Source: Flavobacteriales bacterium
GTDB lineage: Bacteria; Bacteroidota; Bacteroidia; UBA10329
Length of the DNA stretch: 64,000 nucleotides
Direction: 5' to 3'
Assembly: GCA_016124845.1 (NCBI GenBank)
Contig: WGMW01000012.1
Span: 1 to 64,000 of the forward strand
Below, in pieces: positions 724-5,581 of the stretch (the stretch's first letter is position 1; every line of letters starts with the position of its first letter). Under the pieces are notes generated by a model. That model worked only from the letters and a program-made list of their open reading frames with translations, was not told where the DNA came from and did not search any database. The position numbers and the translations under genes are program-made.

Positions 724-745
724 GGATCGTACAAATAACGTGCAG

Positions 746-3082
746 ATGAACCATCCAAACACACCCTCGTTACGTGTTTCACTTAGAAACCATCAGGCAC
801 CCGGTGATATTTTAATGTTATCGGCCGCTCTGAGGGATCTGCACCTCGCTTATCCTGGTCGGTTTATAACCGATGTGGAGACAACCTGCCCAGACATTTG
901 GATAAACAATCCTTACGTTACGGCTTTGGACAAAAAGGATCGCTCAGTAAAAAAACTGAGATGCGAATACCCACTCATCCACCAGAGTGACAAGCTTCCT
1001 TATCACTTCGTCCATGGGTTCATTCAATTTCTGAATGAGCAATTGCAGTTAGACATTCGGCCAACTGCTTTCAGAGGAGACCTACACCTTTCTGAGGAAG
1101 AAAAGAATGAGAATATTCTGAGCCAGTATGGGGTCGATGGCCCATTTTGGCTGATGAATGCCGGAGGGAAGAACGATTTCACCATTAAGTGGTGGGATGC
1201 CAAGCGTTATCAGGAAGTGGTGGATCATTTTAAAGGCCGCATCCAATTCGTTCAGGTTGGAGCCAATGAGCATTATCATCCAGAACTCAAAGGGGTCATT
1301 GACCTCCGTGGGAAGACCACGGTGCGAGAACTTATTCGTTTGGCTTACCATGCCGATGGTGTTGTAACCCCGGTTAGTTTTCTGATGCACTTGGCTGCGG
1401 CCATCGTGCCAAAGCATAAGGACCGAACCCTGAAACCCTGTGTGGTAATTGCAGGAGGTAGGGAACCCGTGCATTGGGAGCAGTACCCAGGACATCAGTA
1501 CATACACACCATTGGGGCGCTTTCTTGCTGCAATAATGCCGGATGCTGGAAATCACGAACGGTAAAACTGAATGATGGAAGTCCTAATGACCGACCGGAG
1601 AATCTTTGTGTGAATGTTGTGCAAAAGACCTCCCCCAGCCTCTTCCTTGGACAAACTAAGAACAGGCTCTTTCAAGGAGGGGAGTTTTTACCTCGTTGTA
1701 TGGACATGATAACTGCGGATGAGGTGATAAGACGGGTGGAGTTCTATTTTGAAGGTGGGACATTGGAATATTCAGTGCCTCTTTCTCAATCAAGTCCTCA
1801 TACCACTCCCGAAGCCAAGAGTAGCAGGCAACCCATCATGGAACCTGTACGAACTTCGGGATACAAAATGCCTAAAAGGCTGACGGAAAAAACAGCCCAA
1901 AAGGAAATTGATACGTTCATACGAACACTCCATGAACGAACATTCAACTTCAACGGTCGTGGCATTGTAATATGCGGGGGTGGCGAGAAATACTTTCCGG
2001 GCACATGGGTGCTTGTAAACATGCTCCGCTATCTGGGCTGTAAGCTTCCCGTAGAAGTATGGTATCTGGGCAAGCATGAAATGGACAACCACATGCAGGC
2101 ATTGCTTGCCCCGTTGGATGTAGCATGCATAGATGCCACAATTATGCGAAAGGAACATCCCTGTCGTATTCTAAAAGGATGGGAACTGAAGGCCTATGCG
2201 TTGCTTCACTCATCTTTTAAAGAGGTGATGCTTCTGGATGCAGACAACGTCCCAACCATTAACCCAGAAGAACTATTCGATTGGCCAGAATACAAGAAGA
2301 CGGGATGCATCTTTTGGCCAGATGTCAACAAACTTTCCAAGGGCCGTCAGATATGGGATCTGATAGGTGTTCCCTATCGCGATGAGCCTGAATTTGAAAG
2401 TGGTCAAATACTGGTTCACAAAGGAAAGTGCCTTGATGCTGTCATCTTATCACTTTGGATAAATGAGTACTCCGACTTCTATTATAACTATATCCATGGA
2501 GATAAGGAGACCTTTCATATGGCCTTCAGAAAACTGAAGACCAACTACGCCATGACCCGCCATCATGTGGTGCTTAGACAAGGAGTAATGTACCAGCATG
2601 ATTTTCGTGGAAAGGTGGTCTTTCAGCATAGAAACGGTCACAAATGGTCCATGAATCACAATCCACGACTGAACGGCTTTCAGTTTGAAGACGAATGCAT
2701 CGCCTTTGTAGAACTGCTTGGTAATATCTGGAGCGGTAAAATAGGGAGTGAACGTACCCGCGATAAAGGAGACAAGAAACCAAATACGGACGCCACAAAA
2801 GAGCTGATATCGTCCCTTTGGTATTATGAACGTGTCGGTTATGATAGACGCCCGATGGTATTCCATCCTGACGGCACTATCCGATTTGGAGGGGCAGCCA
2901 TGGAGAAGCGATGGAATTTTGACGGGAAAGCAGGAGAACTACGGATAAGTGGCGATTCAGGTGTTACGTGCTCCTTAAAACGAAGTGACCACGAAAATAT
3001 CTGGAACGGCCGATGGCTTCAATTTGAGCAAATGCCAATAAAACTGATAGGAATCAACAAACCCAAAAACCATGAAGTATAA
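746..3082 (+). CDS. Two-domain glycosyltransferase (GT9-like plus GT71/MNN1-like)
   Basis: A protein of about 778 residues. The N-terminal half (about 10-260) resembles GT9 heptosyltransferase-like proteins, with an APGD-type loop (QAPGDILML) near the start and a late VTPVSFLMHLAAA segment. A Cys-rich stretch follows (SCC...GCWKSR...LCV...LPRCMDMI). The second half (about 400-650) resembles MNN1/GT71 or GT8 retracting transferases, with the metal-binding DAD in LLDADNVP near residue 496 and a GGGEKYFPG segment. About 90 C-terminal residues look like a small beta domain ending near GRWLQFEQMP. Probably cytoplasmic, building a surface glycan. Residues about 294-314 are encoded by an inserted dispersed repeat. 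An in-frame GTG at 740 is the alternative start. The end overlaps the next gene by 11 nt. Confidence 0.8.
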   Translation: MNHPNTPSLRVSLRNHQAPGDILMLSAALRDLHLAYPGRFITDVETTCPDIWINNPYVTALDKKDRSVKKLRCEYPLIHQSDKLPYHFVHGFIQFLNEQLQLDIRPTAFRGDLHLSEEEKNENILSQYGVDGPFWLMNAGGKNDFTIKWWDAKRYQEVVDHFKGRIQFVQVGANEHYHPELKGVIDLRGKTTVRELIRLAYHADGVVTPVSFLMHLAAAIVPKHKDRTLKPCVVIAGGREPVHWEQYPGHQYIHTIGALSCCNNAGCWKSRTVKLNDGSPNDRPENLCVNVVQKTSPSLFLGQTKNRLFQGGEFLPRCMDMITADEVIRRVEFYFEGGTLEYSVPLSQSSPHTTPEAKSSRQPIMEPVRTSGYKMPKRLTEKTAQKEIDTFIRTLHERTFNFNGRGIVICGGGEKYFPGTWVLVNMLRYLGCKLPVEVWYLGKHEMDNHMQALLAPLDVACIDATIMRKEHPCRILKGWELKAYALLHSSFKEVMLLDADNVPTINPEELFDWPEYKKTGCIFWPDVNKLSKGRQIWDLIGVPYRDEPEFESGQILVHKGKCLDAVILSLWINEYSDFYYNYIHGDKETFHMAFRKLKTNYAMTRHHVVLRQGVMYQHDFRGKVVFQHRNGHKWSMNHNPRLNGFQFEDECIAFVELLGNIWSGKIGSERTRDKGDKKPNTDATKELISSLWYYERVGYDRRPMVFHPDGTIRFGGAAMEKRWNFDGKAGELRISGDSGVTCSLKRSDHENIWNGRWLQFEQMPIKLIGINKPKNHEV
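1627..1687 (+). repeat. 61-nt dispersed repeat inside the glycosyltransferase gene
   Basis: This stretch aligns without gaps to 4792-4852, with 51 of 61 identical bases by my hand alignment. Shared ends are GACCTCCCC and TCAAGGAGGGGA. It keeps the reading frame and encodes about 20 residues (KTSPSLFLGQ...LFQGGEF) between the conserved-looking segments LCVNVV and LPRCMDMI. Confidence 0.8.
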
Positions 3083-3887: not shown

Positions 3888-4549
3888 TGGTGCCTCTTGT
3901 ATTATCGGAAATGAGAACCGGAAGCACTTATATATGCGAAGTACTTGCACATACGCTCTTTGATGAAAATTACATCTACTTGAACGAGCGGGAGTTTGGA
4001 GAACCGAATCAGATAGTAAATCTGTCCCAGCATCATTTGGTGAAGATTCATCATGCTCCTTATCATGAAATCATTCAATTGGTTCCGACCACACTACCCA
4101 TTTTAATTCCGGTACGTGACCCCATGGATGTATATGTGTCTGCCATTCATTTTGCTGCAACTCGCCAAGGAATGACGTTCGACCAATCACTGCTACATCT
4201 AACAGAAATAAAGTGGTTTGAAGGAATGTGGGAACGTATGAAGTCCTTTCTTCATTGTAGCGACCCACGAATAGCTATCATCCAATACGAGGATCTGATT
4301 CAATACCCGGTCAATACACTTCAACAAGCGTTAGTGCGACTAAACATTCCGTTCAATCCCAAACGGTTGCATCATTGGGCAAGCGCATTTTCCTTTACTT
4401 CTAAAACCGGGCGGCAAATGGGCCAAGAATCAAGAGGCACGCATGAAAGGAATGGTTCCATCGGTCAATGGAAAAATCACCCAGACGCCTCGATTCGAAA
4501 GTACGAAGAAGCTTCCAGCGAATACCGTAAACTCTTAAGCGTGTGCTGA
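3887..4549 (+). CDS. Sulfotransferase family protein
   Basis: A 220-residue protein with the PAPS sulfotransferase signatures: an N-terminal 5'-phosphosulfate loop (EMRTGSTYICEVL, about residues 8-20) and a 3'-phosphate-binding RDPMDVYVSAIHF segment near residue 78. It probably transfers sulfate from PAPS to a hydroxyl, most plausibly on the product of the neighbouring glycosyltransferase. Start is GTG at 3887, overlapping the preceding TAG by one base, which favours translational coupling. It is shorter than many sulfotransferases but looks complete. Its 3' end overlaps the convergent gene at 4535 by 15 nt. Specificity cannot be read from the sequence. Confidence 0.78.
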   Translation: MVPLVLSEMRTGSTYICEVLAHTLFDENYIYLNEREFGEPNQIVNLSQHHLVKIHHAPYHEIIQLVPTTLPILIPVRDPMDVYVSAIHFAATRQGMTFDQSLLHLTEIKWFEGMWERMKSFLHCSDPRIAIIQYEDLIQYPVNTLQQALVRLNIPFNPKRLHHWASAFSFTSKTGRQMGQESRGTHERNGSIGQWKNHPDASIRKYEEASSEYRKLLSVC

Positions 4550-4879
4550 GAACTTCTTTTTGAACCAAGCAACTATCTGCTTGCGGTAGAAGGCATAGAA
4601 GAAGATGATGGCCAAGATGTAGGGCATGAACATGAGATATACGATGGCGTTGTTCAGGCCATTGCCCACGGTAAATGCATCGTTGTTCAATTGGTTGGAT
4701 TCGGTAACGGCCCGACACATGCTGCATTGGGCGGAAGCGAATTGGGGGAGGAGGGAAAGGACTACGATAGTGATATGAAAATATACCGCTCGACCTCCCC
4801 TAACCCCTTCCTTCGACAAGCTCAGGACGGGCCCTTTCAAGGAGGGGAATTTGCTCGCTATTTCACCTTCATTTTTCAT
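4535..4879 (-). CDS. Small membrane protein with QCSMCRA motif; repeat-derived N terminus
   Basis: 114 residues if translated from the ATG at 4879, which overlaps the stop of the DUF420 gene (TAATG). The core is a hydrophobic segment ending QFASAQ, then CSMCRAVTES, an amphipathic stretch and a second membrane helix (VYLMFMPYILAIIFFYAFY) with a basic tail. I recall small Bacteroidota proteins with a Q-C-x-M-C-R-A motif beside oxidase assembly genes; function unknown, though the two cysteines suggest metal or redox handling. Residues about 10-29 are encoded by the dispersed repeat at 4792-4852, so the usual signal peptide is preceded by a repeat-derived segment with no downstream ATG before the hydrophobic core. 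It may be impaired. Confidence 0.6.
   Translation of the reverse strand: MKNEGEIASKFPSLKGPVLSLSKEGVRGGRAVYFHITIVVLSLLPQFASAQCSMCRAVTESNQLNNDAFTVGNGLNNAIVYLMFMPYILAIIFFYAFYRKQIVAWFKKKFSAHA
4792..4852 (+). repeat. 61-nt dispersed repeat at the 5' end of a membrane protein gene
   Basis: Second copy of the element at 1627-1687, in the same orientation on the plus strand. Here it is read from the minus strand, giving KFPSLKGPVLSLSKEGVRGG. It contains CTTCGACAAGCTCAGG, typical of Bacteroidota intergenic repeats, and roughly inverted ends (CCTCCCC / GGAGGGG on one strand being CCCCTCC on the other). Confidence 0.8.
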
Positions 4880-5403
4880 TAGAACTCGTAGTACGGGGAT
4901 ATCATCAGATAGACCACCACGCCTGTAACAGTTACATACAACCAAACGGGAAATGTAAACTTAGACACTTTACGGTGCTGGGCAATTTTTCCCTGTAAAC
5001 CGAAATAGAAAGAGATAAGGACCATTGGCAATACGATGGCCGCCAATATGATGTGTGTAAGGAGTATAAAGAGGTAAACTGGCCTTAATGGGTTGTCGGC
5101 TGGGAAACGGGTTTCTACCCCGAAAGAATGAAAAACGATGTAGGAGACCAAGAACAGACTTGACAGCACGAAGGTGGTGATGTTGAGCCGTTTGTGCAGC
5201 TGCACCTTCTTGTTCTTGATGGCCATGAAGGAGGTGATGAGCAACGCAGAACATGTTCCGTTGAGGATGGCATTGAGCAATGGAAGGTATTGCGCCCAAG
5301 CGGGAATCATTTCCTGTTTGGGGAGTGAATAGAGCACGACCACCACCCCGAAAACGACCACGCTGAGGGCAAGAATCAATTGAAAAACTTTTTTGTCGCT
5401 CAT
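4879..5403 (-). CDS. DUF420 family membrane protein
   Basis: A 174-residue integral membrane protein with about five hydrophobic helices, matching the DUF420 (YozB-like) family that accompanies caa3-type oxidase and SCO genes in many bacteria. Features visible are conserved-looking histidines (LHKRLN, VFHSFG, LTHIILA) and a C-terminal helix ending MISPYYEF. A role in oxidase assembly or copper or heme delivery is proposed from context; the biochemical function is not established. It is separated from the SCO gene by a 160-nt gap containing two dispersed repeats, and its stop overlaps the start of the next gene. Confidence 0.85.
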   Translation of the reverse strand: MSDKKVFQLILALSVVVFGVVVVLYSLPKQEMIPAWAQYLPLLNAILNGTCSALLITSFMAIKNKKVQLHKRLNITTFVLSSLFLVSYIVFHSFGVETRFPADNPLRPVYLFILLTHIILAAIVLPMVLISFYFGLQGKIAQHRKVSKFTFPVWLYVTVTGVVVYLMISPYYEF

Positions 5404-5458: not shown

Positions 5459-5508
5459 ATCCTTCGATACGCCCTTCGACTTTGCTCAGGACACTCAGGA
5501 TGACCGTC
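5459..5508. repeat. Dispersed Bacteroidota-type repeat, copy A
   Basis: It begins ATCCTTCGATACG and ends ACTCAGGATGACCGTC, with CCTTCGACTTTGCTCAGGA inside. The same outer sequences bound copy B at 5531-5581. No protein is encoded here. This pattern is familiar as a short intergenic repeat in Bacteroidota genomes. Confidence 0.7.
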
Positions 5509-5530
5509 AATTGTCTTTGGTATTCTTCTT

Positions 5531-5581
5531 TATCCTTCGATACGATTTTCACAAAAGTGAAAATCACTCAGGATGACCGTC
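5531..5581. repeat. Dispersed repeat, copy B, with internal hairpin
   Basis: Same ends as copy A (TATCCTTCGATACG and ACTCAGGATGACCGTC) but a different core: GATTTTCAC (5544-5552), AAAA, GTGAAAATC (5557-5565), a perfect 9-bp hairpin. The minus-strand reading of its right part gives the final residues and TGA stop of the SCO gene. Confidence 0.7.

Follow-up and report, generated by a model that had tools for sequence, protein, structure and literature searches.

A palindromic repeat inserted in frame in a Flavobacteriales glycosyltransferase gene and its possible link to DUF559 nuclease elements

Rickettsia palindromic elements (RPEs) are short mobile palindromes, which are found in frame in unrelated protein genes and are absent from the orthologues of these genes. 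We know of no nuclease-bearing partner of RPEs. Palindromes of the GTAG/CGTC REP type were described within genes of several bacteria, including Opitutus, Thauera and Stenotrophomonas, and CGTC REPs were mentioned in Bacteroidetes (Di Nocera et al. 2013, PMC3733652). These REPs are short, clustered and mostly intergenic, and some of them are located in DNA repair and tRNA synthetase genes (PMC3733652). Homing nucleases in essential coding sequence are usually described as being accommodated there by a self-splicing intron or intein (PMC3943268), and a DUF559 gene of Thermosynechococcus was assigned to the EDxHD homing family within a section on inteins (PMC9403480). The stretch of DNA analysed here (64,000 nucleotides, referred to as the window) belongs to a Flavobacteriales-type genome of the Bacteroidota. 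A sequence-only reading of the window compared a repeat inside a glycosyltransferase gene to RPEs and knew of no counterpart in Bacteroidota; the parallel to Rickettsia stands, but in-gene palindromes are known well beyond this genus, and the mention of CGTC REPs in Bacteroidetes precedes this study.

The glycosyltransferase insertion and its repeat family

The glycosyltransferase (GT) gene at 740..3082 (+ strand) encodes a two-domain protein with a GT9-like N-terminus (Pfam PF01075) and a Mannosyl_trans3 C-terminus (PF11051). Its 793-codon open frame runs uninterrupted through the element at 1627..1687 (+ strand), a long-form palindrome (GACCTCCCC...GGGGAGTTT) delimited by its repeat family and by an insert-free homologue. 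The element encodes TSPSLFLGQTKNRLFQGGEF in frame, a net gain of 60 nt or 20 residues. The homologue in genome G015 (L031, 56% identity), which is the sole good relative among 59 relative genomes and thus the one homologue compared, reads LCVDVVGN-LPRCMDMITADEVIRR, compared to LCVNVVQK-TSPSLFLGQTKNRLFQGGEF-LPRCMDMITADEVIRR in the window. The extra residues, estimated before as about 20, are exactly 20, and their absence from this homologue rules out a conserved GT segment. The gapless 61-nt match between 1627-1687 and 4792-4852 was reproduced with 51/61 identical positions (84%). The chance of at least 51 matches is ~1e-21 per position pair and ~4e-12 over all window pairs, and the whole-genome BLAST E-value is 3.5e-12, which rules out a chance match or low complexity.

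The second long-form copy (4792..4852, + strand) is antisense to a small gene for a membrane or secreted protein (4535..4945, - strand), which was delimited as an ORF with congener orthologues and has an uncertain start codon. The copy is located at the N-terminus of this gene (KFPSLKGPVLSLSKEGVRGGR), and a signal-peptide-like segment follows it. At the orthologous place, congener G005 (L149) carries a short form, KFPSWQGGARGGR, and other congeners carry no element. A further dispersed repeat, TTCGATACG...CTCAGGATGACCGTC, which resembles CGTC-type palindromes, occurs twice at 5460-5581 of the window.

The genome (4.36 Mb, 65 contigs) harbors eight long copies and over 20 that are shorter or partial, so that the repeat is not confined to the two places in the window. 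In the 1.245 Mb of the genome taken as stretches for detailed counts, approximately 30 family copies were detected with nhmmer. The short form is 36 nt long (consensus GACCTCCCCCAACCCCTCCTTTCCAGGAGGGGAGYT), the long form (~59 nt) contains a nested CTTCGACAAGCTCAGGACAGGC piece in its loop, and the consensus ends of the family are GACC and GAGYT. The strict palindrome pattern was found in 6/9 genomes of the genus and in 0/286 other Bacteroidia genomes, with zero matches of reversed-pattern controls; by this pattern, the family appears nearly confined to the genus. All six frames are open in 9/19 short copies compared to 7% of random stretches. In the long copy of the window, only three frames are open, and six-frame openness is therefore no general property of the family. 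No target-site duplication, for which the sequence-only reading had suggested looking, was found among the 22 full copies. Further palindromic families, CTCCCCTTTGGGGAGATGCCGAAGGCAGAGGGG, ACTCCCCCTTTCAAGGGGGAGAGT, GACGCGATGAATCGCGTC and AGCCACAGAAACACAGA, were observed in stretches L040-L099 of the same genome, where CTCCCCTTTGGGGAGATGCCGAAGGCAGAGGGG palindromes frequently follow directly after the studied element.

According to ab initio gene prediction (989 genes, 88% coding), the ~30 copies comprise about 20 intergenic ones, six located deep inside genes in frame and four at N-termini. The six deep in-frame hosts are the window GT, ileS, dnaE, aroA, an ABC ATPase gene and a membrane GT. A chimeric protein search against eight congeners, combined with alignments, showed that the congener orthologues mostly lacked these inserts or had different or shorter ones. 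The ileS insert is SSPPGKEGSGEVD, that of dnaE comprises ~48 residues from two elements, and that of aroA ~55 residues; the corresponding position of aroA in G003 holds just one element. The insert of a Wzt-like ATPase is absent, different or shorter in congener orthologues, and the loop of the membrane GT carries the element here and other palindromes in relatives. The same holds for inserts in the signal-peptide regions of several genes, which are absent, different or shorter in the orthologues; these N-terminal cases are weaker because the start codons are uncertain. As side observations, the membrane GT loop (L102, L110, L112) is a hot spot of in-frame insertion, where the repeat-like insert differs from congener to congener, and dnaE of G001 (L113) carries a separate in-frame insert, GARTERSRS, which may belong to the CTTCGACTGCGCTCAG type. 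A palindrome of a length that preserves the reading frame would persist in coding sequence. The genome has many copies, several of which interrupt further genes in frame and are missing from the congener orthologues. Copy number and in-frame gains relative to these orthologues support the short mobile element proposed before, and the 61-nt stretch is best read as a member of a dispersed family of palindromic mobile elements.

Ordinary REPs mobilised by a RAYT (REP-associated tyrosine transposase) are an alternative reading, and seven Y1_Tnp matches are present in the genome. One of them, the RAYT-like Y1 transposase gene L035 (G000:C54:23104-23448), has flanking palindromes of its own (TAGCCCACG...CGTGGGCTA). 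However, none of the seven loci is flanked by the studied family (0/7), which moreover lacks a GTAG or CGTC end tag, and this origin is considered improbable.

DUF559 nucleases inside conserved enzymes

A scan of GTDB r220 contigs with the palindrome pattern retrieved three records, one Flavobacteriales MAG and two cyanobacteria, and the two cyanobacterial matches led to DUF559 (PF04480). In Pseudanabaena, all pattern matches (7/7) are located in frame in one MmeI-type restriction gene around a DUF559 domain. The arrangement of DUF559 in cyanobacteria is the same as in Bacteroidia, with other palindrome-coded peptides. In the window genome, DUF559 is found in frame inside leuS (L266, G000:C11) and metH (L267, G000:C56), and the sites are empty of DUF559 in the congener orthologues of both genes. 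A SAM riboswitch was identified with Rfam at L267:481-592, upstream of the DUF559-carrying metH.

PF04480 is present in 138/295 Bacteroidia genomes, and 60 of the 150 matches listed are in ORFs with a minimum length of 600 aa. The hosts, read out directly or identified with Pfam, are LeuS and MetH (two sites each), IleS, MutS, RecG, RecJ, a UvrD-type helicase, acetyl-CoA synthetase, an IcmF-type mutase, a SpoIIE phosphatase, HsdR and Eco57I-type enzymes. DUF559 is positioned inside or between host domains in 17/17 proteins scanned with Pfam, and single domains interrupted by it include MutS_III, DHH and AMP-binding. Since the carrier G138, which has DUF559 at LeuS site 1, is a single-contig genome, assembly error is no general cause of this arrangement. 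In-frame copies (L160, L166, L189, L194, L262 and others) share an N-terminal linker like PGYxTADPxxWxxLKxxAK, which free-standing DUF559 copies seem to lack.

An intein was ruled out for the insertions examined, as no Hint splicing domain was found with Pfam in the 17 host proteins; furthermore, no intein-type HN-C/S/T was present at the leuS and metH junctions. Group I and II introns were likewise ruled out for the 12 DUF559 loci examined, in which Rfam detected no intron RNA and only a SAM riboswitch.

In comparison with structures, the DUF559 profile matched 3HRL (E = 2e-31) and 3R3P, annotated as 'mobile intron protein' (E = 4e-6). The latter structure is the EDxHD homing endonuclease I-Bth0305I. 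E17, D46, E57xD59 and H63 do not vary among 13 DUF559 copies, and judged by homology and these conserved E/D/ExD/H residues, DUF559 is a relative of I-Bth0305I. In a DUF559 tree, the copies cluster according to host site (27 changes versus 54.8 with shuffled labels, 0/200 shuffles as low), although the tree is built on few columns with many open forks, and single forks should not be over-read. Insertion sites are reused in different families, and the grouping is exemplified by the acetyl-CoA synthetase site of families f4 and f15 and the SpoIIE site of f8 and f15. The leuS and metH copies of the window genome are found in separate parts of the tree.

Invariant catalytic residues and a LeuS insertion site shared by five family f3 genomes would also be expected of a functional fusion, e.g. 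a guard nuclease, which is kept for the host and is not mobile, with the short palindromes being unrelated to it. Such a fusion is highly improbable, given that the hosts are unrelated (tRNA synthetases, MetH, MutS, RecG, RecJ, acetyl-CoA synthetase), that presence is patchy with empty congener sites, and that the copies have inverted palindromic flanks.

Flanks of the nuclease copies and origin of the short palindromes

For 60 in-frame DUF559 copies, the left and right flanks were compared with each other. The mean inverted-repeat score was 21.5, compared to 15.2 for direct repeats (p = 3e-6) and 10.0 for shuffled flanks (p = 2e-11); these p-values are optimistic, as copies at the same site are not independent. 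About 12 of the 60 have flanks without a clear inverted repeat. A palindrome HMM, trained exclusively on 15 short palindromes from the window genome, gave ~56 matches at DUF559 loci versus one in reversed sequence, many of the ~56 coming from two cyanobacterial loci and from both strands of one palindrome. The matches at DUF559 flanks of other families and of cyanobacteria were mostly 20-170 nt away and part of the same ORF. DUF559 elements of other families carry related but different palindromes, the strict pattern being confined to the genus among the 295 Bacteroidia genomes.

In the window genome, the DUF559 of leuS has a complete palindrome on either side in inverted orientation, and the flanks of the metH copy resemble other palindrome families. 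The leuS flanks match the HMM of the short family weakly (E about 0.4), and the weakest step is therefore the link between the short window family and DUF559 within this genome. The second LeuS site, which is occupied by DUF559 in other families, holds solo palindromes (LPSGEGQGGV, NSPLLGRGVGGEV) in two congeners, G004 and G006, and the LeuS position of NSPSLGGGQGEV in the window genome is taken by a SSPPGKEGSGEV palindrome in G003. These palindromes look as would be expected of solo remnants or solo ends of a nuclease element; an arrival of the palindrome before the nuclease is also compatible.

The window element is most likely, in our estimation with a moderate degree of confidence, a non-autonomous relative ('solo end') of larger elements inserted in frame in conserved host genes, which consist of a palindrome, a short linker, a DUF559 nuclease and an inverted palindrome. 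The DUF559 protein would cut the empty allele and the element would be copied in by break repair, i.e. by homing. Loss of the nuclease part or mobilisation in trans would give rise to the short palindromes. The full fusion would be translated, with the inserts being tolerated by the host enzymes as surface loops or domains.

Alternatively, the palindromes might be independent, REP- or MITE-like elements, which are inserted at random by some transposase, are kept in genes when in frame and, being there beforehand, serve DUF559 only as tolerated landing sites. The majority of the copies being intergenic, the abundance of other palindrome families, the excess of short palindromes, which far outnumber the DUF559 copies in the window genome, and the intragenic REPs known elsewhere (PMC3733652) all fit this possibility. 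Yet the leuS DUF559 has a complete inverted palindrome on each side rather than the two halves of a single one, DUF559 elements generally have inverted flanks, and the family copies in Pseudanabaena are found only around DUF559, so that independent palindromes are regarded as a rather unlikely, though serious, alternative to the solo end of a nuclease element.

In a broader sense, the DUF559 insertions might represent previously unrecognised mobile elements, a proposal to which we give an even chance: homing-type nucleases with inverted palindromic ends, in frame at conserved sites of essential genes and retained unspliced in the mature protein, occurring in Bacteroidia and cyanobacteria and leaving short derivatives, the window element among them, in genes and spacers. 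No paper linking DUF559 to palindromic repeats or to intein-less in-frame insertion was found in the open-access literature, and relative to this literature, the DUF559 elements may be of a kind not yet described.

Comparison with known systems

In place of a self-splicing intron or intein, DUF559 elements seem to use in-frame palindromic ends for residing in tRNA synthetases, MutS, RecG, RecJ and MetH. They are a candidate origin of intragenic palindromes and could help to explain sightings of these in repair and tRNA synthetase genes. If true, the reading of enzyme inserts and of many 'junk' peptides of the SPxPSFxGGE type would change.

The window element taken alone is an intragenic palindromic element of an already known kind, of a family differing from the tagged REPs. 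Like RPEs, the studied family is dispersed (~30 copies in 1.245 Mb), in frame in unrelated genes and absent in orthologues; it is set apart from the description of RPEs by phylum, by length and apparently by sequence. With the GTAG/CGTC REPs it has in common that the palindromes are short, clustered and mostly intergenic, with some in DNA repair and tRNA synthetase genes. In contrast to those REPs, it has no unpaired GTAG/CGTC end motif and ends with GACC and GAGYT, and since both tags are missing, it is a different sequence family. Moreover, no link to a RAYT was found at the seven Y1_Tnp loci, the family being linked to DUF559 instead.

DUF559 itself is comparable to the EDxHD homing endonucleases (I-Bth0305I, 3R3P) and to inteins and introns in its homology, in the catalytic residues kept, and in its patchy occurrence at fixed sites in conserved genes. 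Unlike homing introns and inteins, the DUF559 insertions examined have neither a Hint domain nor an intron RNA, and show inverted palindromic flanks and in-frame read-through. From MITEs and IS elements they differ in that there is no known transposase and no target duplication in the short copies, and in that the frame is kept throughout the element. What the DUF559 elements share with MITEs and IS elements is the plan of inverted ends around a nuclease gene, together with putative short derivatives without the nuclease.
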